DNA from: Pseudomonadota bacterium
Lineage (GTDB): Bacteria > Desulfobacterota > Syntrophorhabdia > Syntrophorhabdales > Syntrophorhabdaceae
Direction of reading: 5' to 3'
NCBI GenBank assembly: GCA_026388315.1
Contig: JAPLKA010000055.1
Span: 124,001-188,000, forward strand
DNA length: 64,000 nt
The notes under the pieces were generated by a model. It had not been told where the DNA came from. It searched no databases and saw only the letters and a program-made list of their open reading frames with translations. Made by a program: the position numbers and the translations under genes. Position 1 is the stretch's first letter. Every line of letters begins with the position of its first letter. Shown here one piece after another: positions 15,137-59,905 of the stretch.

Positions 15137-16093
15137 ATGCCCCGATCTGATGTTCATCCCAAATTCCATTTCGAACCCTGGCAGGTGTGGCCGGGGTCAT
15201 ATGATAACCCTCCTGCCTCTGGAGAGGTCTATCCCTTTCCGGACGTTTCAGGATTAAAGATTGACCTGAAAACGCCCATCGCCTCTATGGGTTCATGCTT
15301 TGCCAGGGAGATAAAGGATGTGCTCATTGACAGAGATTATTCATACATCAGGGAAGAGGTTGGTCATCCTGCCTCGAAACACGCCAGCGCCGCATGGGAA
15401 CGAACGTACAACTCCTTTTCCATGCGACAGATATTCGAGTATACCTTTGACGACTGGAGGCCTCATGTTCGCTGGTGGAAGGCGCCAGTGTCCGGCATCA
15501 TCCAGGACCCCTACCGAAGGATTATCCTTTACAAATCGATGGCGGAGGCGGAGGCGGACTTCGAAAGACATTGCCTGGCATCGCGCACAGCCCTTGAACG
15601 TGCAGAGGTACTCATTCTGACCTTCGGTCTCACCGAGATATGGGAAGACAGGATTGACGGGTCTGTGATCTGCCTTCCTTCCGGTCCCTATGTGAACGAG
15701 GGCGGTGATATGAGCCGGTACCACTTCAGGGTGAGTCGCTATCATGAAAACCTTGACAACATGGAGCGCATATATGAACTTATGAAGGCCCATAATCCCC
15801 GGTGCAAACTGATTGTGACGGTCTCACCGGTACATCTCTGGGCAACATTCAGGAAAGACCTCGACGTCATCAGCGCAAGCTGGAATTCCAAGGCTACCCT
15901 GAGGGCTGCTGTAGACGAATTTGTCTCCCGCCACGAGAACGTATTCTATTTTCCTGCCTTTGAGATGGCCGTTACATACAGGGCAATCCTCGGCAAATCG
16001 TTATTTACCGAGGGAAGGGAGCCGTTCCACGTCAACAAAGAGACGGTAAATTTCATCATGGATAATTTCTTCCGCATATTTTCGAATGAATAG
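15137..16093 (+). CDS. GSCFA domain protein
   Basis: A 318-residue protein with the family-defining motif in ASMGSCFAREI and later LILTFGLTEIWED and VSPVHLWATF, as in SGNH-hydrolase-like GSCFA proteins. These are often found in polysaccharide loci and may act as esterases or acyltransferases on glycans; no activity is proven for this one. ATG 15137 has AGGTGA eight nt upstream; a GTG at 15125 is the alternative. Its 3' end overlaps the 3' end of the convergent heparinase-like gene by 38 nt. Confidence 0.88.
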   Translation: MPRSDVHPKFHFEPWQVWPGSYDNPPASGEVYPFPDVSGLKIDLKTPIASMGSCFAREIKDVLIDRDYSYIREEVGHPASKHASAAWERTYNSFSMRQIFEYTFDDWRPHVRWWKAPVSGIIQDPYRRIILYKSMAEAEADFERHCLASRTALERAEVLILTFGLTEIWEDRIDGSVICLPSGPYVNEGGDMSRYHFRVSRYHENLDNMERIYELMKAHNPRCKLIVTVSPVHLWATFRKDLDVISASWNSKATLRAAVDEFVSRHENVFYFPAFEMAVTYRAILGKSLFTEGREPFHVNKETVNFIMDNFFRIFSNE

Positions 16094-18518
16094 ATGTGAG
16101 AAAATGGGGAGGGATGTGGGAATGGATATCCGGGAGGGGATAGAGTACCCATGTAAGCGTGAGAGGTAGGGGGTATACGAAGGAAAAGGTAAAATGACTT
16201 GCCAAAATATCTCCACCATTTACAGAGACCCATCCGCATAATGGATCAGTATTGCCTTCCGAACGGACGACATCCGGTTTATAGTTCCTCAAGACGGGGA
16301 TCAGGGCAACGCCCCTGCCTTCCGATGTCGCTTTGCGGATTATGTATGTACAAGAGTCAATGTTAGTTTGCCCGGGAGAAAACTGCCAGCACACGGTGAC
16401 GGTGTGATTCCCATGCCCTGCTATTAAAGGGGCTCGCGTCGCCCCCTCCGCCAGCAAGCGCGACCCGCAACAAGCGGGTACCCCGGCCATTCTCTCGCGC
16501 TCGCAGTGCTCGCTAAATGACGCTCGGACTGAATCCTGAATGATCCAGTACTTATGGGCCGGAAAGGAGACCGTTCTTGTTACGGCAATCCTTGTGCCTC
16601 TTTCGTCGAGATAATCATTGCAGATTCCCGTTAACGTATCAATCGAGCATTCCAACCCTTTCTTCCGAGAAAGTAATTTAAGCGGCAGATCATTTATACC
16701 AAGCGTTTCATGGTGAAATCCAAAGCCTTCCCTCGCTGATCGTACTCTTTCCTGAAAAGCTAACTGTGACCTCTCGGGGCCTTTCCCATCGATGAGGATC
16801 ATATTATGGGCAACGGCTGAGCGGTAATAACCGGTAAGGGGCGTAGGCGCGTAGGTTGTGATGCCCGGGTCCGCAAGACAAAGGGTTCCATGCACTGTTA
16901 CATCGAGAGAGAGGACATCTTCATGTATGTGTGTCATTCCCGGAGGACCTGCCCTGAATACAAGGAAATGTGAGTCTTTGTTGTAACCCGACCGCATAAC
17001 GCCAATACCGGCATCGGGGTATATGTGTACAGCAGCGGCAGGCGAAGTGCCTCTCCGGCCTTTTGTGCCGATCCATATAAAATCGGGACGGTTAAAGAGT
17101 TCTCCTGCAAGCCTCATGAGGACTCTATAGTCACCGGTTATGTTCCCTGAATCATTCAAAGAAGGCCAGGTGAAGTCAGGGCGGCATAGAGAAGCGAGGT
17201 ATCCGGCTGCCCTTTCCAGGGGGGCCTCAAATACTGCGGGGAGAGGTACATGTTTGACGGATGCTGCCCTTTTCACTTCCAATAATGCATGGAGGCAGAT
17301 GGCGTGATAAAGCGGTGACAGTTCAAAATGAACCCCATCCGCCATAAATTGTCTGTGGAATTCACTTTCAAGACGACTTACCCCCTCCTCGAACCACTTG
17401 GCGGCTTCCGTTAATTCGGGGAGGCATATCCCGGCAAGGGCTAATGCCGTTGATTCCACGATGATCCAGTTATTAGGATGGCCTTTGTGATCCATGAGGT
17501 GGCGGGCATGTTCCCAGAAGGAACGGAGCATCAGTTCTTTCGTTTCACGCCTGAAGGATTCATGAGGCCATGCTATCCCTTTTATCCAGAGCCATTCCCT
17601 GAGACGCCATGCAGCAGACAGGGTTTCCCAGGATGGTCCAGCGCCGCCGTTTGATCCCACAGGCACGGGATGCGCGATGATCCAGTCGTGGATTATCTGA
17701 TCCAGAAATGCACTATAATGCCGGTCTTTTTTCTCCAGAAAGGCCTTCATCACTTCCCTTAAGAAGTGATGCCGGTGGAGAAAGTGCGACCATTCCAGAA
17801 TGCAGGACGGGTTTTTGTCCCACTGTAAGGGCCATGGAAGTTGTTGGCCCATGATGTGACCCTTGAGGATTTCGTCAGCGCCCTCCTGAGGGTAGGGATG
17901 GTAAGGGGGGATAGAAAGCAATGACGCATATGCCTGCCCGTAAGGATTGTCCGCATCTTCCCCTGGGCCCCTTTCTTGCGGGAGAGAGAGGGCCCTTGCA
18001 GACGCGCAATGGCTCAGCATCGCCTTGAGACCTCCATTTGTCAGCCTCGGGCCTGCCGGGAACAGCCGGTCTTCGCCATAGAGGGCGCCTATGCCCACTG
18101 CGATCAATCCCGTTGAAACGTCTGTTTTCTCATGTTTGCATGTGATTTCTATGCGGGTGATGTCTTTCCAGTCATCCGGTTTTCCATATGTGCCGAATGA
18201 CTCCCGGGGGAATGCTAATTCCACTGTTTTCCCGGGTGGCAGGCATTCCCGCCCACCGCTTAGTGAAACGGGCTCATCGATCACATCTGTTTTGCCGGAC
18301 CCGTGGAACAATCTCATTTCTGCATACAGGACCGTTTCCGTAAGGTTGGTTGCGGTAAGAGATAGCTGGTTGAATGACGAAAAATCCCGCATGGGGCATA
18401 GAAGGGTTACGCGGATCTGACCGATCGATGCGGCATGTCCGTACCCCTCAAAGAGCAACGCCCTCCTGGTGATTGTGTCACAAAGAAATGTGTCGGAAGG
18501 CAATCCCGGATCTTTCAT
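16056..18518 (-). CDS. Heparinase II/III-type polysaccharide lyase-like protein with an inserted repeat
   Basis: An 820-residue protein. The N-terminal half is an alpha-helical toroid of alginate-lyase/heparinase type (LEWSHFLHRHHFL, NNWIIVESTALALAG). The C-terminal half has the heparinase II/III beta-sandwich start (THIHEDVLSLDVTVHG, YYRSAVAHNMILIDGKGPERSQ). In many polysaccharide operons such proteins cleave or process acidic glycans in the periplasm, but no clear signal peptide is visible here. Residues about 663-697 are encoded by a copy of the dispersed hairpin repeat (16429-16530) placed in frame between KYWIIQDS and HGNHTVTVCWQFSPG. The last 40 or so residues look unrelated to the family and overlap the neighbouring gene, so the natural stop may have been lost. 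Confidence 0.88.
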   Translation of the reverse strand: MKDPGLPSDTFLCDTITRRALLFEGYGHAASIGQIRVTLLCPMRDFSSFNQLSLTATNLTETVLYAEMRLFHGSGKTDVIDEPVSLSGGRECLPPGKTVELAFPRESFGTYGKPDDWKDITRIEITCKHEKTDVSTGLIAVGIGALYGEDRLFPAGPRLTNGGLKAMLSHCASARALSLPQERGPGEDADNPYGQAYASLLSIPPYHPYPQEGADEILKGHIMGQQLPWPLQWDKNPSCILEWSHFLHRHHFLREVMKAFLEKKDRHYSAFLDQIIHDWIIAHPVPVGSNGGAGPSWETLSAAWRLREWLWIKGIAWPHESFRRETKELMLRSFWEHARHLMDHKGHPNNWIIVESTALALAGICLPELTEAAKWFEEGVSRLESEFHRQFMADGVHFELSPLYHAICLHALLEVKRAASVKHVPLPAVFEAPLERAAGYLASLCRPDFTWPSLNDSGNITGDYRVLMRLAGELFNRPDFIWIGTKGRRGTSPAAAVHIYPDAGIGVMRSGYNKDSHFLVFRAGPPGMTHIHEDVLSLDVTVHGTLCLADPGITTYAPTPLTGYYRSAVAHNMILIDGKGPERSQLAFQERVRSAREGFGFHHETLGINDLPLKLLSRKKGLECSIDTLTGICNDYLDERGTRIAVTRTVSFPAHKYWIIQDSVRASFSEHCERERMAGVPACCGSRLLAEGATRAPLIAGHGNHTVTVCWQFSPGQTNIDSCTYIIRKATSEGRGVALIPVLRNYKPDVVRSEGNTDPLCGWVSVNGGDILASHFTFSFVYPLPLTLTWVLYPLPDIHSHIPPHFLTSIHSKICGRNYP
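16429..16530 (-). repeat. Dispersed hairpin repeat, copy A (type 2), inside a coding sequence
   Basis: Read on the minus strand it ends in GGGGGCGACGCGAGCCCC, the most conserved part of the family, and holds the type-2 hairpin ACCCGC-TTGTT-GCGGGT also seen in copy D2. The first hairpin is degenerate here. It stays in frame across the heparinase-like gene. Confidence 0.85.
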
Positions 18519-18649: not shown

Positions 18650-19333
18650 ATGATAAAGGTGTTTCTTGCGCGGCACGGTGAAACCGCTGGAAACAGCCAG
18701 GGACTTATCCTTGGACGAAAGGACTATCCTCTAACTGACAAAGGCATTAAGACCACCACGAAACTGGCTCATATTGTTATGGAGAGGCTTATGTCATATT
18801 CCGGAAGCCTTTCTTTTGTCGGAGATGGGTCCGGACTATTGCCGAAAGATGCCCGTGTGTTTAGAGGCCTCATCGTAGCCTCTTCCCTTGGCCGTGCCCT
18901 TGAGAGTGCGCGGATATATGCCGACAAAACCGGATGGCAGATAGAGGTGATGGCAGGGATGGCCGAGCTTTCCTGTGGACAATGGGAAGGACAACTCAGG
19001 AGCGTAGTAGCGCCGGATCGGCCCTTTATCCGTGCAGCATGGACGGCGTCCCCTCCTGAGGGTGAGGGCTATGCGAACGGAGAACTCCGGGTGGCCGAAG
19101 TCGTACGGAAGATAAAAATGATGGAGGGTTATGATGTAGCCATTGTCGTAGGTCACGCGGGGATAAACCGTGTCTTCCTGAAACTGTGGCTCGAGATGGA
19201 CCCGTTGTGCATCCTGAATGTCCATCAGTCCCATGAAACGATATACATACTGAATAGCGGTGACGATAAAGAAGTGGATTGGATACATGCTGACGGAACG
19301 ACCGGCCAGGGACTGATAGTTGAAAAACCATAA
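18650..19333 (+). CDS. Histidine phosphatase (phosphoglycerate-mutase-like) protein
   Basis: A 227-residue branch-1 histidine phosphatase. The catalytic His is in FLARHGETAGN and the second His in VVGHAGINR. Such proteins remove phosphate from sugars or nucleotide loops (for example alpha-ribazole phosphatase or ADP-heptose-type phosphatases); the substrate is unknown. GAGGAG precedes the ATG. The end overlaps the following radical SAM gene by 14 nt, so the two are co-translated. Confidence 0.9.
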   Translation: MIKVFLARHGETAGNSQGLILGRKDYPLTDKGIKTTTKLAHIVMERLMSYSGSLSFVGDGSGLLPKDARVFRGLIVASSLGRALESARIYADKTGWQIEVMAGMAELSCGQWEGQLRSVVAPDRPFIRAAWTASPPEGEGYANGELRVAEVVRKIKMMEGYDVAIVVGHAGINRVFLKLWLEMDPLCILNVHQSHETIYILNSGDDKEVDWIHADGTTGQGLIVEKP

Positions 19334-20816
19334 AATCCTTCTCATCGAACCCCCCTTTTACCGGCTTTTTAAAGAGACTTACGGGCTGGTCAGGTACCCC
19401 CTTTCTCTCGGGTATCTTGCGTCATCCGTAAAAGCAGGGACGGATTGGGATATCATGGCCTATAACGCTGATTTTACACCGGCCAGCGACCCCTTTGAAG
19501 TGACGTATTTTAAGGGTGCGGGCTTTGCGCGCTACCGCAGGACCCTCTGTGATGTATCGCACCGGATATGGCAGGGGATTCGGGATGTCATCTCCGGATA
19601 TGCACCGGCTGTTGTGGGCATCTCAGCAAAATCATCCACCTTTGCGTCTGTCCTCCGGGTCGCAGGTATTGCAAAAGCGATCAATCCCGAGATCATTGTC
19701 GTTGTCGGTGGTCCTCACCCTTCTGCCGTATTCTCAAAGGCATTTGACACGACAGGCATGAAAGGGGGTCGAGTCGACAGGACAGATGCGGGCGGCGAGG
19801 TTTTTTGCCGGGATATTGATATGTTTGTTGTCGGTGAGGGAGAAGAGACGATCGTTGCATTACTGGATGCCCTCGAAAGGCATAAGAGCCCTGACCGTAT
19901 CGGAGGGATTGTGTATAGAAAGGGGGAAGAGCTTATGGCAACCCTGCCGGGAAGACCCGTAGAAAACCTCGACGCGCTTCCCTTTCCCTATCAATATGCC
20001 CCTCACGTCTTAAAAGATTACGAAATCTACCCGTTATCCGCTTTCAGCAATGTTTTTGCTACACGGGGATGCCCTTACTGTTGCCTTTTCTGCGGGTCCA
20101 GAAACGTATGGGGGAAAGGCGTACGGTTCCGTTCACCCCGCAATGTGGTTGAAGAGATACTGAATCTGCAAAACATCGGCATCAAAGACATCCATTTTGG
20201 TGATGACACCTTCGGGGTTACAACACCATATCTCCAGACCCTTTGCCGGGCAATCAAGTCTTCATGCCCAGGGATCAGTTGGAGTTGTGAAATTCATGTT
20301 CGGCTCGTGAATGACAAAAACATATCCATTATGAAAGAAGCGGGGTGCTTCATGATCCAGCTCGGTATTGAGTCGGGGAATAACGAAATCCTGAAAGAAG
20401 TTAGAAAAGGCTTTACTATCGAGGAGGCGCTTGTAGCATGCAATATCATCAGGAACCACGGCATAAACCTGCAAACCTTTTTTATGGCCGGATTCCCTCA
20501 GGAGACAGAGGCGTCCCTCAAAGATACTGCGAAGGTCATCGAAGAGATTGAATGTGAAAAGATCATATACAGCATATTTACCCCTTATCCTGGCACGGAG
20601 GCTTTCGAACTTTGTCGGGGCAAGGGCATGATCACCCCCGACTATGACCCGTCCCTCTACTGCCACCAGAGCCCTGAAAACTGCTTCTGCGTCAATATAT
20701 CCCCTGAGCGTTTCAGGAAGCTGTCATCCCGTATTGAGGAGACGGTAGTGCAAAAAAACAGATTCTCATGGGCAAGGTCTTTGTTTGCGTTGCATGGCCC
20801 GTGGGAATCTCAATAG
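19320..20816 (+). CDS. B12-binding-domain radical SAM protein
   Basis: A 498-residue protein with an N-terminal cobalamin-binding-like Rossmann domain (LIEPPFYRLF to VVVGGPHPSAV) and a radical SAM domain whose C-x3-C-x2-C cluster motif is in RGCPYCCLFCGSRNVWG. It belongs to the large BchE/P-methylase-like group that modifies lipids, sugars or natural products. Translation starts at a TTG preceded by AGGGA, coupled to the phosphatase gene. Its last codons and TAG stop fall at the left edge of a dispersed hairpin repeat. Confidence 0.9.
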   Translation: MKNHKILLIEPPFYRLFKETYGLVRYPLSLGYLASSVKAGTDWDIMAYNADFTPASDPFEVTYFKGAGFARYRRTLCDVSHRIWQGIRDVISGYAPAVVGISAKSSTFASVLRVAGIAKAINPEIIVVVGGPHPSAVFSKAFDTTGMKGGRVDRTDAGGEVFCRDIDMFVVGEGEETIVALLDALERHKSPDRIGGIVYRKGEELMATLPGRPVENLDALPFPYQYAPHVLKDYEIYPLSAFSNVFATRGCPYCCLFCGSRNVWGKGVRFRSPRNVVEEILNLQNIGIKDIHFGDDTFGVTTPYLQTLCRAIKSSCPGISWSCEIHVRLVNDKNISIMKEAGCFMIQLGIESGNNEILKEVRKGFTIEEALVACNIIRNHGINLQTFFMAGFPQETEASLKDTAKVIEEIECEKIIYSIFTPYPGTEAFELCRGKGMITPDYDPSLYCHQSPENCFCVNISPERFRKLSSRIEETVVQKNRFSWARSLFALHGPWESQ

Positions 20817-20882
20817 CCCACACCGTGGGCGAGAAGGGGAGGCTCCGACAGCTTTGCTGGTGGAGGGGGCGACGTGAGCCCC
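20801..20882 (+). repeat. Dispersed hairpin repeat, copy B (type 1)
   Basis: It opens with GTGGGAATCT (half of the outer stem), then hairpin 1 GCCCAC-ACC-GTGGGC, hairpin 2 CTCC-GA-CAGC-TTT-GCTG-GT-GGAG and hairpin 3 GGGGC-GACGTGA-GCCCC. The TAG stop of the radical SAM gene is in its left part, and the convergent glycosyltransferase gene ends 34 nt beyond. Confidence 0.88.
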
Positions 20883-20915
20883 GGTAACAGGGCAATGCGC
20901 AGTCGAATGGAATAA

Positions 20916-24882: not shown

Positions 24883-24960
24883 TCTACTATTCAGCTCGCA
24901 CGGCGAGCGAGAGGGGGAGGCTCACACGGTTTTGCCGGGTGAGGGGGCAACGCGAGCCCC
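24883..24960 (+). repeat. Dispersed hairpin repeat, copy C (type 1)
   Basis: Lies between two convergent genes. Hairpin 1 is GCTCGC-ACG-GCGAGC, hairpin 2 is CTCAC-A-CGG-TTTTG-CCG-G-GTGAG, and hairpin 3 is GGGGC-AACGCGA-GCCCC. The outer stem is present only as a half (AATCTACTATTC). Confidence 0.88.
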
Positions 24961-24976
24961 TTTGATAGCCGGGGCT

Positions 24977-31125: not shown

Positions 31126-31797
31126 ATGAACGCGAAAGAAAATTTGAAAAATATGAAAAAGTCACGGATGAGCAAGCAGATTGTTATGGGAACTTTCTTT
31201 CTTATACTCCTTGGCGGAGGCTGGTTTTTCCCTCTCATCGGGTATTTTATCCCGCTCTGTATGGTTGCAGGTATCAGCATGGCGAGCGTAAAAGGAAGAA
31301 AATGGTGCAACTGGTTCTGCCCGAGAGGTTCCTTCGCGGATGCTTATATGAAAGCAATAAGCCCTGAAAAGAAAATTCCGGATTGGTTACGCTCATTACC
31401 TGTTCGCATTGGAGTGCTTGCCTTCCTCATAGGGATGCTCACTGTCCAGATCATAAGGTTTTGGCCTGATCCATATGCCATCGGCAGGTTTTTTATGGTG
31501 CTCCTTACCATTACGACAGCCGTCGGGATAATTCTTGCCCTTGTCTTCCAGCAGCGTTCATGGTGCTATATATGCCCGATAGGGTCAATGTCAAACTGGG
31601 TAGGGAAGAACAGGGATCAACTTGCCATTGATACAGAATCCTGCGTTTCGTGCAAGCTTTGTGGAAAGACATGCCCTATGCAGCTCACCCCTTATGAAAT
31701 GAAGGAAAACCAGGAGATGTCCTTTAAAGGAGATTGTTTGAAATGCGGTCTCTGTGTGGTCACCTGCCCGAAAGAGGCGCTCAGTTACAGGGGCTAA
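31126..31797 (+). CDS. Membrane polyferredoxin (NapH-like 4Fe-4S protein)
   Basis: A 223-residue protein with three to four helices, two CxxxCP motifs on loops (WCNWFCPRGSF, WCYICPIGSM) and two C-terminal [4Fe-4S] motifs (CVSCKLCGKTCP, CLKCGLCVVTCP). It resembles NapH/CcoG-like electron-transfer proteins that feed electrons across or along the membrane; its partner is unknown. Its final codons and stop (GGGGCTAA) coincide with the edge of a dispersed hairpin repeat. Confidence 0.88.
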   Translation: MNAKENLKNMKKSRMSKQIVMGTFFLILLGGGWFFPLIGYFIPLCMVAGISMASVKGRKWCNWFCPRGSFADAYMKAISPEKKIPDWLRSLPVRIGVLAFLIGMLTVQIIRFWPDPYAIGRFFMVLLTITTAVGIILALVFQQRSWCYICPIGSMSNWVGKNRDQLAIDTESCVSCKLCGKTCPMQLTPYEMKENQEMSFKGDCLKCGLCVVTCPKEALSYRG

Positions 31798-31857
31798 CGT
31801 CGCCCCCTCCACCGGCAAAGCCGTCGGAGCCTCCCCACTCTCGCACGCTGTGCGTGC
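31790..31857 (-). repeat. Dispersed hairpin repeat, copy D1 (type 1)
   Basis: Minus-strand orientation: hairpin 1 GCACGC-ACA-GCGTGC, hairpin 2 CTCC-GA-CGGC-TTT-GCCG-GT-GGAG, hairpin 3 GGGGC-GACGTTA-GCCCC. Its right-hand end supplies the stop codon of the ferredoxin gene. It lies close to copy D2. Confidence 0.88.
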
Positions 31858-31878
31858 TGAAGACTCTTTGTTCTGACA

Positions 31879-31999
31879 GGGGCTAACATCGCCCTCCACC
31901 GGCAAAGCCACGACCCGCAAGCGGGTGTCCCGGCCTCCCCCTCTCGCTCACCGTGTGAGCTGAATAGATTCCAGCGGACAAGCCCGTGGGAATCTATTC
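31879..31999 (-). repeat. Dispersed hairpin repeat, copy D2 (type 2) with outer stem
   Basis: Hairpin 1 is GCTCAC-ACG-GTGAGC, followed by the type-2 hairpin ACCCGC-TT-GCGGGT. The 3' end is GGGCGATGTTAGCCCC. Next to hairpin 1 is an outer inverted repeat, GAATAGATTCC (31962-31972) with GGAATCTATTC (31989-31999). Copy E has the same kind of outer stem. Confidence 0.85.
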
Positions 32000-32344
32000 G
32001 TACTCTTTCGGAACGGCGCAGATTAAAACGAATGGCTTATCTGCTGATTTATTCCGGTACTGGTGTGTTTCGCCAGGCAGGATAAGGGCAAAATCTCCTT
32101 TTTTGACAGGACGTTCTGACCCGTTTTCCATGACAACGGCGCCATTACCCTCGATGATGTAATTCAAATGTTCAAAGGCATGTTGATGATACGGGGTATG
32201 GCCGTTCGGCTCAATGGTGAAAACCCGGAAAGAATATGCCGGAGAACCGTCACCCATTGATATGGGGATCTGCTTATATGTATTTTTTGCCCCTTCAATA
32301 TTGAGTTTAACTTTCTCTACCTTGTCAAGATTGGTTATTTTCAT
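31994..32344 (-). CDS. Small cupin-domain protein
   Basis: A 116-residue single cupin. Motif 1 is in NGHTPYHQHAFEHLNYIIEG (metal-type histidines) and motif 2 in KGDFALILPGETHQYRN. It likely binds a metal ion; sensor, isomerase and dioxygenase roles are all possible. ATG 32344 follows GGAGG by five nt; the open frame upstream of it is not coding. Its 3' end lies in the outer stem of repeat D2. Confidence 0.88.
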   Translation of the reverse strand: MKITNLDKVEKVKLNIEGAKNTYKQIPISMGDGSPAYSFRVFTIEPNGHTPYHQHAFEHLNYIIEGNGAVVMENGSERPVKKGDFALILPGETHQYRNKSADKPFVLICAVPKEYE

Positions 32345-42628: not shown

Positions 42629-42727
42629 TAGATTCCCACGGTTGTTGGAATCTACATTTAGCGAATTCATGAGCGAGAGTGGGGAGGCTCCACGAGCTTT
42701 GCTTGTGGAGGGGGCGACGCGAGCCCC
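42628..42727 (+). repeat. Dispersed hairpin repeat, copy E (type 1) with outer stem
   Basis: Outer stem GTAGATTCC/GGAATCTAC (42628-42655); hairpin 1 is degenerate (GCGAATTCATGAGC). Hairpin 2 is CTCC-ACGAGC-TTT-GCTTGT-GGAG (one G-T pair), and hairpin 3 is GGGGC-GACGCGA-GCCCC. It directly follows the hisS stop, and its antisense strand encodes the C-terminus of the convergent gene. Confidence 0.88.
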
Positions 42728-43140
42728 ATTAATAGTTTGCTTCTGTGCATTAAGTACGTCAGAATAAACGCAAGGGCAAACCTGAAGGCGACCAGGATAA
42801 AACCATTCGCGCCGATTACAACAAAAATCAAAGTATCTTCTATCATGGCATGACAGATTGAGAGAAAAAGAAGGATGAGAAAACCCTCTCTTTTACTTAT
42901 ATTGGATGTCTTTATAGAATAGATGATGATACCGGCACCATACGTTAACCCGATAATAATCCCTGTAATGAGAGGCACCAAACCATTATGGGTTATTCCA
43001 AATACAGAAAAGCGTATTTTTTCGATCTGTGACTGTTTGTGTTTGAGAAACTCATAAGAAATCGTCAAGGGTAGTATGATGACGAAAAGTTTGAGTATCA
43101 GGCTGAACGAGTCTTTTAATGCTACTAAAATAATTTCCAT
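42667..43140 (-). CDS. Gate-domain (nucleoside recognition/SpmB-like) membrane protein, second half
   Basis: A 157-residue protein with about four helices (SLILKLFVIILPLTISYEFL, LVPLITGIIIGLTYGAGIII, ICHAMIEDTLIFVVIGAN). It looks like the second half of a two-gene nucleoside-recognition Gate pair with the gene upstream, whose end it overlaps by 16 nt. Its last 19 residues (GLASPPPQAKLVEPPHSRS) and stop are encoded by the antisense strand of repeat copy E, so the original C-terminus has been replaced. Confidence 0.8.
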   Translation of the reverse strand: MEIILVALKDSFSLILKLFVIILPLTISYEFLKHKQSQIEKIRFSVFGITHNGLVPLITGIIIGLTYGAGIIIYSIKTSNISKREGFLILLFLSICHAMIEDTLIFVVIGANGFILVAFRFALAFILTYLMHRSKLLMGLASPPPQAKLVEPPHSRS

Positions 43141-45911: not shown

Positions 45912-46136
45912 ATGAAAAAGCTCTTGGTGTTATTTATAGCCCTTACATTTTTTGCAAGTTTTTCATTAATGGGTTGCGGCCCGTCGGCTGAGCCACCAAA
46001 ACCAGCTCCAAAAGAGGAGGCAAAACCAGCGGCACCAGCTCCAGCACCGGCTCCAGAGAAAGCAGCACCGGCTCCAGAGAAAGCAGCACCGGCTCCAGAG
46101 AAAGCAGCACCAGCTCCAGCACCGGCGAAAAAGTAG
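45912..46136 (+). CDS. Small Ala/Pro-rich lipoprotein
   Basis: A 74-residue lipoprotein: signal peptide with lipobox LMGC, then a low-complexity tail of Ala, Pro, Lys and Glu containing three PAPEKAA units. It precedes pal, so it may be a periplasmic spacer-type envelope protein. Strong AAAGGAGGTGA ribosome site. Confidence 0.8.
   Translation: MKKLLVLFIALTFFASFSLMGCGPSAEPPKPAPKEEAKPAAPAPAPAPEKAAPAPEKAAPAPEKAAPAPAPAKK
46047..46109 (+). repeat. Three perfect 21-bp tandem repeats
   Basis: The 21-nt unit starting CCGGCTCCAGAG and ending AAAGCAGCA occurs three times without change, encoding the PAPEKAA units of the small lipoprotein. Such perfect repeats are prone to copy-number change by slippage. 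Confidence 0.9.
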
Positions 46137-55597: not shown

Positions 55598-55670
55598 GCC
55601 GAGGTAGCTCAGTCGGTAGAGCAGGGGACTGAAAATCCCCGTGTCGGCGGTTCAATTCCGTCCCTCGGCA
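55598..55670 (+). tRNA. tRNA-Phe (GAA)
   Basis: A 73-nt cloverleaf without encoded CCA: acceptor GCCGAGG/CCTCGGC with discriminator A, D stem GCTC/GAGC, anticodon stem GGGGA/TCCCC with anticodon GAA at 55631-55633, and T loop TTCAATT. Its 3' part is the integration site of the adjacent island. Confidence 0.97.
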
Positions 55671-55680
55671 CTTTAATCTC
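55626..55680 (+). repeat. Left attachment-site repeat (attL, in tRNA-Phe)
   Basis: Covers the anticodon region through the 3' end of tRNA-Phe plus 10 flanking nt. It is identical to 59851-59905; the bases on either side differ. Confidence 0.9.
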
Positions 55681-55681
55681 A

Positions 55682-56020
55682 TTAAGTTCCTCTTTTATCT
55701 TCTTCCTTTTGGACGATTCCCTTCAACCTTTTTACTGCAAGTCGGTACACTTCTTCTTTGTCTCTTCTTCCTATACCAACAATCTCGACGACTTCAATCT
55801 GCTCTCCAATGAGGTGATACACAATCCTGTAGGCTTTCTTTGCCACATATATTTTGTAATAGCCGGTAAGGTCAAGGCCGAATTTATTTCCCAGCGGGTT
55901 CCCAAGGAAAGGGTTTTCCTGTAAGGCAATAGCCTTTTTTATAACCTGAGTCCTGATTGATTTATCGAGGCCTTTGAGGTCATTATGGGCATCTTTTGTA
56001 AATATGACTTTATAGGCCAT
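55682..56020 (-). CDS. RelE/ParE-family toxin
   Basis: A 112-residue protein with the RelE fold signature: YKVIFTKDAHNDLKGLDKSI, then LGNKFGLDLTGYYKIYV and AYRIVYHLIGEQIEVVEIVGIGRR. RelE toxins cut mRNA at the ribosome; ParE members poison gyrase, and sequence alone does not separate them here. It overlaps the antitoxin gene by 11 nt and its stop lies immediately inside the left att repeat. Confidence 0.9.
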   Translation of the reverse strand: MAYKVIFTKDAHNDLKGLDKSIRTQVIKKAIALQENPFLGNPLGNKFGLDLTGYYKIYVAKKAYRIVYHLIGEQIEVVEIVGIGRRDKEEVYRLAVKRLKGIVQKEEDKRGT

Positions 56021-56294
56021 AACGTTCCCTTATTTCTTCAAGGGTTACGCTCTGAGAAGAATCATGGTGTTTCATGCGTTGTTGTACCATCTCATATATC
56101 TCGAAGTGCTCAAGAACCTCTTCCAGCTCTTTTAAGGTAGAATATTCATCAGGCGATACCATAACGGCTGCAACCTCATTATTTCTCAGAACAAAGAGCG
56201 GTTCTTTCGTATCCGAGACGTCACGCAACTTTTGGGTAAGTTCTCTCTGTAGTCGGGTTACGGAAATCATCTTGTTCGTGTTAACCAGCATCAT
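56010..56294 (-). CDS. Phd/YefM-type antitoxin
   Basis: A 94-residue protein with the Phd/YefM N-terminal DNA-binding start (ISVTRLQRELTQKL), VLRNNEVAAVMVSPDEYSTL in the middle and an acidic C-terminal tail that should wrap the toxin. ATG 56294 has GGAGGTG upstream; the frame is open further but without a ribosome site. It is coupled to the toxin by an 11-nt overlap. Confidence 0.9.
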   Translation of the reverse strand: MMLVNTNKMISVTRLQRELTQKLRDVSDTKEPLFVLRNNEVAAVMVSPDEYSTLKELEEVLEHFEIYEMVQQRMKHHDSSQSVTLEEIRERYGL

Positions 56295-56353
56295 TACACC
56301 TCCATATATAATTACTATTATACATGGAATAATATGTATGTCAAGGGGTATCT

Positions 56354-56479
56354 TCACTTGAGTTTCCTGACTGCCTTGGTAATCGCAGGTTCACTGACTT
56401 TAAAATATCGTGAACGTGATGCTTGGGTTGCTCCGCTTGATAACATTTCTTTTAATTCATCGAGATTGATTCTTCCCAT
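56354..56479 (-). CDS. 41-residue HTH-like protein
   Basis: The peptide runs MGRINLDELKEMLSSGATQA and continues SRSRYFKVSEPAITKAVRKLK, a helix-turn-helix of the Ner/phage-regulator kind. ATG 56479 is nine nt after AGGAG; an ATG three codons upstream lies too close to it. It is followed by the antitoxin gene and is a likely small regulator of the unit. Confidence 0.7.
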   Translation of the reverse strand: MGRINLDELKEMLSSGATQASRSRYFKVSEPAITKAVRKLK

Positions 56480-57741: not shown

Positions 57742-59094
57742 TTAACGGCAATCCCCCTTCCTTTTTGCCAATTCGTATAACTTGCAATCCCCCAAACTAC
57801 ACGCCTTTTGAGCGTCACTGCATCCACGGGTGGTATTGCCCATAAGCAAATATGCATACCCCCTGTTGTTATATGCCCCGGCATCATCTGGGTTGAGACG
57901 GATAGCCTCGTTGTAATCTTCTATTGCTCGCTGGGGTTGGCGGAGTTTCAAGTATGCATTCCCTCGATTATAGTATGCATTGGCATTGTCCGGTTTGAGA
58001 CGGATGGACTCATTAAAATCCTCGATTGCTCTCTGGTGCTGACCAAGGCCATGGTATGCATTCCCTCGGTTTAAGTAGGCAGCGGCATAATCCGGTTTGA
58101 GACGGATAGCCTCGTTAAAGTCTTGAATTGCCCGCTGGTGCTGACCAAGCTTCCCGTATGCTGACCCCCGGTTGGAGTATGCAATCGCAACGTCAGGTTT
58201 GAGGCGAATGGACTCGTTGAAATCTGTAATTGACTGCTGGTACTGACCGAGACTCAAGTATGCCAACCCCCGGTTGTAGTATGCCTTGGCATCATCAGGT
58301 TCAAGCCGGACAGCCTCGTTACAATCTTCAATTGCATGCTGGTGCTGACCAAGGGCGCTGTATGCTACCCCCCGGTTGTTGTACGCCACGGCAAAGTCAG
58401 GTTTGAGGCGGATGGCATTATTCAGGTATTCAATAGCTTTTTTGGGGTTAGAGAATTTTTCGTCCTGCCAGAGTGCTGAGGCTTTATAAAACCAGTCCAC
58501 CGCTGTGAGCCCCTGGGATGCCTCCTGAAATTGCCTCTTCAAATCGTCGCTGCTTTTGTTCTGTGCCATTAGGCGCAGGTTTTCCACTTCCAGTTTAGTT
58601 ATCTTGTCCAGATATTCCTTCTCTTTTATCCTGGCCTGATTGAGGTCATTCAGGTGTTTTCTGTCTTCCAAAAGTTTCTTGACTCTCGCTTCCAGAAAGG
58701 ACGTATCAACAACCACTTCGACCACGACTTCAATGCCTTTGACGTTCCCGCTGACATAGTTCTTTTCTGATACAACCTCAGTTTTCAAGACACCTGCCGA
58801 CAAGGCGAGAATCTCATCTTTCTCTACACGAAAGTCTTTAACAACAGCGAGACTTTCCACGTAAACCCCTGCCTTTTCCAAGGCTTCACGTTTTGCTCTT
58901 GCTACTGCGGCAATACGTGCATCATCGGCTGACCTACTGCCTCCGAATTGTTCTTTGACGGTGCGGGTGATGGTTTGAATCTCTCCCCTGACAGGGAAAG
59001 GGATAAGGCTCAGCATAACCGCCATGATAACAGCAAAACAGAAGAAGGAACATACCTGAATAGTTGGAATATACTTTGAAACTGTACTTCTCAT
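57742..59094 (-). CDS. Periplasmic TPR protein
   Basis: A 450-residue protein: signal peptide (CFAVIMAVMLSLIPFPVRG), an LPP20/FlgT-like N-terminal domain (DDARIAAVARAKREALEKAG), a coiled-coil stretch (about 145-185) and seven TPR units of 34 residues (unit type AIEDFNEAIRLKPDYAAAYL). The TPRs are highly alike at DNA level, a sign of recent duplication. A scaffold role is likely. A Cys-containing tail follows. Confidence 0.85.
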   Translation of the reverse strand: MRSTVSKYIPTIQVCSFFCFAVIMAVMLSLIPFPVRGEIQTITRTVKEQFGGSRSADDARIAAVARAKREALEKAGVYVESLAVVKDFRVEKDEILALSAGVLKTEVVSEKNYVSGNVKGIEVVVEVVVDTSFLEARVKKLLEDRKHLNDLNQARIKEKEYLDKITKLEVENLRLMAQNKSSDDLKRQFQEASQGLTAVDWFYKASALWQDEKFSNPKKAIEYLNNAIRLKPDFAVAYNNRGVAYSALGQHQHAIEDCNEAVRLEPDDAKAYYNRGLAYLSLGQYQQSITDFNESIRLKPDVAIAYSNRGSAYGKLGQHQRAIQDFNEAIRLKPDYAAAYLNRGNAYHGLGQHQRAIEDFNESIRLKPDNANAYYNRGNAYLKLRQPQRAIEDYNEAIRLNPDDAGAYNNRGYAYLLMGNTTRGCSDAQKACSLGDCKLYELAKRKGDCR

Positions 59095-59850: not shown

Positions 59851-59905
59851 GGACTGAAAATCCCCGTGTCGGCGGTTCAATTCCGTCCCTCGGCACTTTA
59901 ATCTC
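59851..59905 (+). repeat. Right attachment-site repeat (attR, tRNA-Phe fragment)
   Basis: An exact copy of 55626-55680 lacking the 5' half of the tRNA, so it cannot make a functional tRNA. It marks the right end of the island. Confidence 0.9.

Follow-up and report, generated by a model that had tools for sequence, protein, structure and literature searches.

The locus considered here raises the question of how a hairpin-forming repeat came to lie in frame within a conserved protein-coding gene, and of what the peptide that it adds means for the protein. The window analysed is a stretch of 64,000 nucleotides (G000:C55:124001-188000) from the draft genome G000. The first-pass annotation of this window proposed that a repeat at 16429-16530 adds about 35 codons to a heparinase II/III-like protein after WIIQDS, at a site where the family has a short turn, and that the arrangement recalls the Rickettsia palindromic elements.

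The insert and its host gene

The host gene is a heparinase II/III-like open reading frame of 820 codons on the minus strand (16056-18518 in the open reading frame list of the window). Its product matches Hepar_II_III_N (E 3e-38) and Hepar_II_III_C (E 2e-15) in Pfam; the second match covers residues 498-715, and the insert falls within it. A covariance model built from 28 repeat copies finds the repeat at 16421-16521 (G000:C55:140421-140521) with E 8e-22, so that the annotated locus was right and its coordinates were a few bases off. The copy has the + orientation of the model (R1), and the gene reads it on the minus strand.

An orthologue is present in a genome of another genus of the same family (G016), with 81% amino-acid identity, and it lacks the segment. 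The translation and the alignment give a net gain of 35 codons at 16419-16523 on the minus strand. The corresponding peptide, ASFSEHCERERMAGVPACCGSRLLAEGATRAPLIA, sits between WIIQDSVR and GHGNHTVTVCWQF, at the point where the orthologue shows the short turn QDTIQGSGQAAVTACWQF, and the frame stays open on both sides across the 820-codon reading frame. The size of the insertion and its place at a short turn are as annotated. Tryptic peptides predicted from the insert include MAGVPACCGSR, LLAEGATR and APLIAGHGNHTVTVCWQFSPGQTNIDSCTYIIR. In the G016 gene, a stretch of about 40 nt of this type of repeat lies in frame elsewhere and reads LLPGEGATRAPLIE.

The insert would form a hydrophilic loop of 35 residues in the C-terminal β domain, with a surface position suggested by the orthologue alignment. 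A single-sequence structure model of the C-terminal part had a mean pLDDT of 31 and was discarded.

The codon score is weak just downstream of the insert, and the dN/dS ratio of this part of the gene therefore matters. Against G016, dN/dS is 0.23 before the insert, 0.30 after it and 0.24 overall. Both flanks of the insert are under purifying selection, and what lies downstream of it still serves as protein. The objection that the gene is a pseudogene, which had been raised with the annotation, is ruled out on this basis.

The repeat family

The repeat has about 79 copies in the 3.80 Mb of G000 (44 BLAST matches and 78 model matches at E < 1e-7). Because of these copies within the same genome, and because the more distant genomes sampled (three of family f3 and eight of other families of the phylum) have none, the insert in the heparinase-like gene is not a chance resemblance. 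Six of the model matches lie within the window. Besides the heparinase copy, which is of the long form, there are short forms at 20808-20890 (minus strand in R1 orientation, just 3' of a radical-SAM-type gene at 19320-20816), at 24886-24968 (minus strand, overlapping the upstream end of a minus-strand open reading frame) and at 42653-42735 (minus strand), together with a tandem pair on the plus strand at 31782-31865 and 31871-31968, the second of which is a long form. The last codons and the TAA stop of a ferredoxin-like gene (ending CPKEALSYRG) come from the copy at 31782-31865. A second palindromic motif, GAATAGATTCC...GGGAATCTATTC, is found at 31965-32000; it often adjoins copies of the repeat and occurs at other loci too, as in mosaic repeat arrays.

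Other repeated sequences were observed elsewhere in the window. An exact repeat at 55626-55680 and 59851-59905, 4.2 kb apart, takes in the 3' portion of the tRNA gene at 55598-55670, like the ends of an integrated element. Between the two lie a RelE/Phd-like toxin-antitoxin pair (55682-56357, assigned by eye) and a TPR protein; the 102-nt tandem repeats at 57851-58437 are accounted for by the 34-residue repeats of this protein. No integrase was seen. At 46009-46119 a 21-nt unit (CAGCACCGGCTCCAGAGAAAG) is repeated in tandem and, if translated, would give a stretch rich in Ala and Pro.

The repeat unit occurs in two forms, a short one of 83 nt and a long one of 98-102 nt, the latter with an extra GACCCGC..GCGGGT hairpin. 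In model orientation it consists of C[TA][AT]TTAC, GGGGCTYRCGTCGCCCC, a variable hairpin (CTCC....GC AAA GC....GGAG), CCCC and a GCTCGC-type hairpin. The hairpins covary, and pairs 5-7 of the variable hairpin show compensatory changes. Since one copy folded as single-stranded DNA does not outperform shuffled sequence (z -0.2 to -0.6), it is the covariation that carries the structural argument. An Rfam search of the window returned a single tRNA and no other known RNA family or intron family.

The repeat is present in most relatives of the same family and of a second family (f2), and the model finds none in three relatives of a third family (f3) or in eight genomes from other families of the phylum. 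Exact matches to a 21-nt core occur also in Nitrospirota, Syntrophorhabdus and a few other MAGs. The insertion first noted in the heparinase-like gene is real without being a single curiosity: it reflects something that this repeat does generally, throughout a bacterial order and in a second phylum as well.

The best reading of the element class is a non-autonomous element of REP/MITE type. The end consensus over 120 copies is C[TA][AT]TTA(C), the inverted ends amount to about 5 nt (CTATT..AATAG), and no parent transposon was found. As for a mobiliser, G000 has three Y1 transposase genes of RAYT size, none of them flanked by the repeat, and the RAYT of L047 type is absent from G005, a genome with 80 copies. 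RAYT was rejected as the mobiliser because the genes are not flanked by the repeat and are distributed unlike the copies.

Coding palindromes are known as the Rickettsia palindromic elements (RPEs) and from Wolbachia and Methanocaldococcus (PMC10969869, PMC2229807). They too are palindromic repeats of about 100-150 nt, both intergenic and intragenic, that add an in-frame peptide to unrelated proteins. The present family shares with the RPEs the hairpin-forming palindrome in many copies (about 79) and the in-frame insertion into conserved protein-coding genes. It differs, in a comparison made by description only, in its carriers (Desulfobacterota-type and Nitrospirota MAGs, hence two phyla, rather than Rickettsia), in its GC-rich units with several hairpins and in a measured bias to one orientation and one frame. 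The annotated likeness to the RPEs is supported by the empty-site orthologue, the open frame, the purifying selection on both flanks and the many further examples described below. The best reading is that the repeat works as the RPEs do, an analogy of behaviour.

The RPEs are a sound precedent, though not the sole one. Intragenic REPs have been reported in Opitutus, Thioalkalivibrio, Thauera, Xanthomonas, Rickettsia and others, with hosts that include repair genes, notably uvrA and recB (PMC3733652). The GTAG/CGTC REPs likewise have hairpins near the 3' ends of genes and some copies within genes, including repair genes; the hosts here include uvrA (G005), and mfd and an AddA/UvrD-like gene (G029). 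However, the present repeat carries no terminal GTAG or CGTC tag at the ends of the 120 copies (CGTC is present only inside the unit), exceeds the single 20-40 bp stem-loop of those superfamilies with its several hairpins per unit, and has no adjoining RAYT gene. ERIC and RU elements of enterobacteria are MITE-like, about 100-170 nt long, with open frames, and some copies lie in frame in genes (PMC2759123, PMC2229807). ERIC, by contrast, comes from unrelated organisms and has 5'-TA termini and target duplications. Among open-licence papers, a set without the 2002 RPE article, no description was found of this repeat family, its taxa or the one-frame bias. The phenomenon of in-frame palindromes is thus known, and this family, its spread across phyla and the one-frame bias appear to be new, with the reservation that the bias may in part have been reported already for the RPEs.

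Other hosts, empty sites and the favoured frame

Six of the copies in G000 lie in coding sequence. In addition to the heparinase-like gene, the hosts are genes for an HdrA-like flavoprotein (L071), a HemW-like radical SAM protein (L081), HdrA (L086), V-ATPase subunit I (L075) and a TehB-like methyltransferase (L091). In-gene copies add about 26-35 amino acids. The hosts in other genomes are equally diverse: the tails of a histidine kinase and of an ABC ATPase, and UvrA, in G005; GltD-like, Mfd, AddA/UvrD-like and zinc alcohol dehydrogenase proteins in G029; CdhD, MtaB-like and SfsA proteins in G025; AmtB in G020; persulfide dioxygenase in G011; and, in two Nitrospirota MAGs, a spermidine-synthase-like and a DnaJ-like protein. 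Pfam matches support the identity of the host proteins. At the C-termini of histidine kinases the repeat forms in-frame tandem arrays in two species.

The uvrA gene of G005 (L162, contig C22) has four tandem copies, and one incomplete copy breaks the frame inside the array; this could be a true gene fission or an assembly fault. Other candidates for in-gene copies, PBP2 (L089), OmpH (L055), pdxA, metF and purN, proved to be leader copies. In three species of one genus (L379, L380, L381) a copy stands directly upstream of the pdxA start, in the same direction and with the frame open into the gene, and is possibly a leader element or an N-terminal extension.

Empty sites are found at other hosts as well. 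The orthologues of the HemW-like gene in about 17 relatives align in two parts around the insert and have the site empty; they include one from the same genus (G002), whose protein is 94% identical over the aligned C-terminal part. This site, before IDEYVV, is filled in both G000 and G005 (L167), and may be an insertion hot spot. For the HdrA-like gene the site is empty in about 14 relatives, with alignments split into 1-372 and 402-924, and solved homologues have 3 residues where this protein has 31. The tryptic peptide predicted from this insert is EGVALPALLVEGATR. One further genome (G011) carries the same insert, in a protein 94% identical to that of G000. As to a target-site duplication, comparison with the empty HemW-like site of G002 hints at an ATAG flanking the insert on either side, and the HdrA-like site shows none.

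In-gene copies are almost always read in one orientation and one frame, with the consensus FSSHSEREGEAPTALLVEGATQAPVI. In a mechanical test on 249 copies, some of which are neighbours in one array so that there are fewer events than rows, 12 of the 16 strict in-gene copies had this orientation and frame. Stop codons alone are ruled out as the source of the bias, since the frame used is among the less open ones: the numbers of stop-free readings are 149, 155 and 205 in model orientation and 118, 111 and 63 in the opposite one, and the favoured frame holds 111 of the total of 801. A hand count of independent hosts (the window, L071, L081, L086, L075, L162, L167, L186, L178, L238, L291, L297, L311 and L319) placed 14 of 15 inserts of the favoured orientation in that frame (p ~1e-5 against the stop-free share), the one against being a second copy in L319. 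A test that makes no use of codon statistics, on open frames of at least 250 codons in 46 genomes of the order, gave 23 of 96 stop-free copies for the favoured frame (about 7 of the 23 being leader copies just upstream of starts) and 5 of 132 for the most open other frame (only one of the 5, a SAM hydroxide adenosyltransferase, L396, being a clear in-gene case). At least this one clear host thus departs from both the favoured orientation and the favoured frame. At the two best junctions the border falls on an Ile codon (ATA or ATT).

Intergenic copies are biased in orientation too, by 122:38 at gene 3' ends (p 2e-11) and 106:28 at 5' ends, and the orientation bias therefore does not come from selection on proteins alone. 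In the variable hairpin, A.C mismatches on the model strand outnumber G.T ones by 44:3 in G000 and 33:1 in G005, and this A.C excess corresponds to G.U pairs on the strand that genes read; most of the excess comes from a single pair, and it may be inherited, the copies being related. G.U-tolerant hairpins together with the direction bias point to a role or a constraint at the level of RNA. Once orientation is given, neither DNA nor RNA can sense the frame, and on this ground we infer that the choice of frame reflects selection at the level of the peptide, to which the phase of the target perhaps contributes.

Origin and meaning of the coding copies

On the basis of these observations we propose, with a probability of about 0.8, that the repeat is a non-autonomous REP/MITE-like element which is tolerated in genes in one orientation and frame. 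Transposition would carry the element to sites adjoining C[TA][AT]T, which the coding strand shows as AT[AT]G. Copies would pile up mainly between genes, with the G.U-tolerant strand along the direction of transcription, and a copy within a gene would survive only where the frame is kept and the protein tolerates the peptide. The survivors would then be those in one orientation and one frame (approximately SSHSEREGEAPTALLVEGATQAPVI), at turns, domain linkers and termini. The RNA hairpin would have a function, the insert would be translated and the peptide would be neutral; the best reading is of a peptide that proteins for the most part tolerate rather than use.

The insert shared by the HdrA-like genes of G000 and G011 bears on this in two ways. 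Of the five codon changes in it only one is synonymous, whereas the remainder of the gene has 218 synonymous and 56 non-synonymous ones (p 0.008), which fits a tolerated passenger. At the same time its dS is 0.04, against 0.47-0.61 in the flanks, a gap not expected under simple neutrality; constraint on the nucleotides, homogenisation of the copies or two separate hits at one site could account for it. The low synonymous change speaks for a rival view, in which the inserts are kept for a benefit that the host draws from the peptide or from the RNA hairpin, for example as a flexible linker or an mRNA control element. The single preferred frame, the orientation bias in leaders and trailers too (with the pdxA-upstream copies), the G.U-compatible hairpins on the transcribed strand and the histidine kinase arrays could be understood in the same way. 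However, the hosts are enzymes with no relation to one another, the insert is missing from most orthologues, in-gene copies are few (6/79 in G000), and four of the five codon changes in the shared insert are non-synonymous, compared with 56 of 274 elsewhere. We consider a benefit to the host improbable.

The chance is far smaller that the insert is removed or bypassed during expression, leaving a mature protein without it. The repeat is rich in hairpins, but no intron family was detected, and excision would need neither the preserved frame nor the openness and the favoured frame that the inserts display. It is equally hard to believe that the heparinase-like gene is a pseudogene or an assembly chimera with an untranslated insert: the assembly is a draft in 131 contigs, probably derived from a metagenome, and the codon score dips beyond the insert, but the downstream dN/dS, comparable insertions in more than 15 unrelated conserved genes and in several genomes from other projects, and the HdrA-like insert common to two separately assembled genomes all argue against it.

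Beyond the tolerated REP/MITE-like element, a more ambitious proposal is doubtful: the repeat may have become adapted to coding, with selection on the RNA fixing its direction and the one frame giving a peptide that is safe when translated. It would then be a mobile module that supplies a ready-made linker to unrelated proteins across two phyla, with some sites, such as the HemW-like one, hit repeatedly.

Coding palindromes first drew notice in reduced intracellular bacteria such as Rickettsia, and weak selection is the usual explanation. Here the same habit is found in bacteria that are probably free-living, of groundwater or sediment type, with genomes of several Mb. The hosts are conserved enzymes, repair proteins among them. 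Annotators and structure modellers should take care that the insert peptides, which are not domains, are not treated as such. Many species offer natural empty and filled alleles. Two old questions can thus be put to the test, one on the neutrality of such inserts and one on whether selfish repeats evolve towards safety when translated, and the spread of the repeat through an order and to a second phylum opens the origin of coding palindromes to testing as well.
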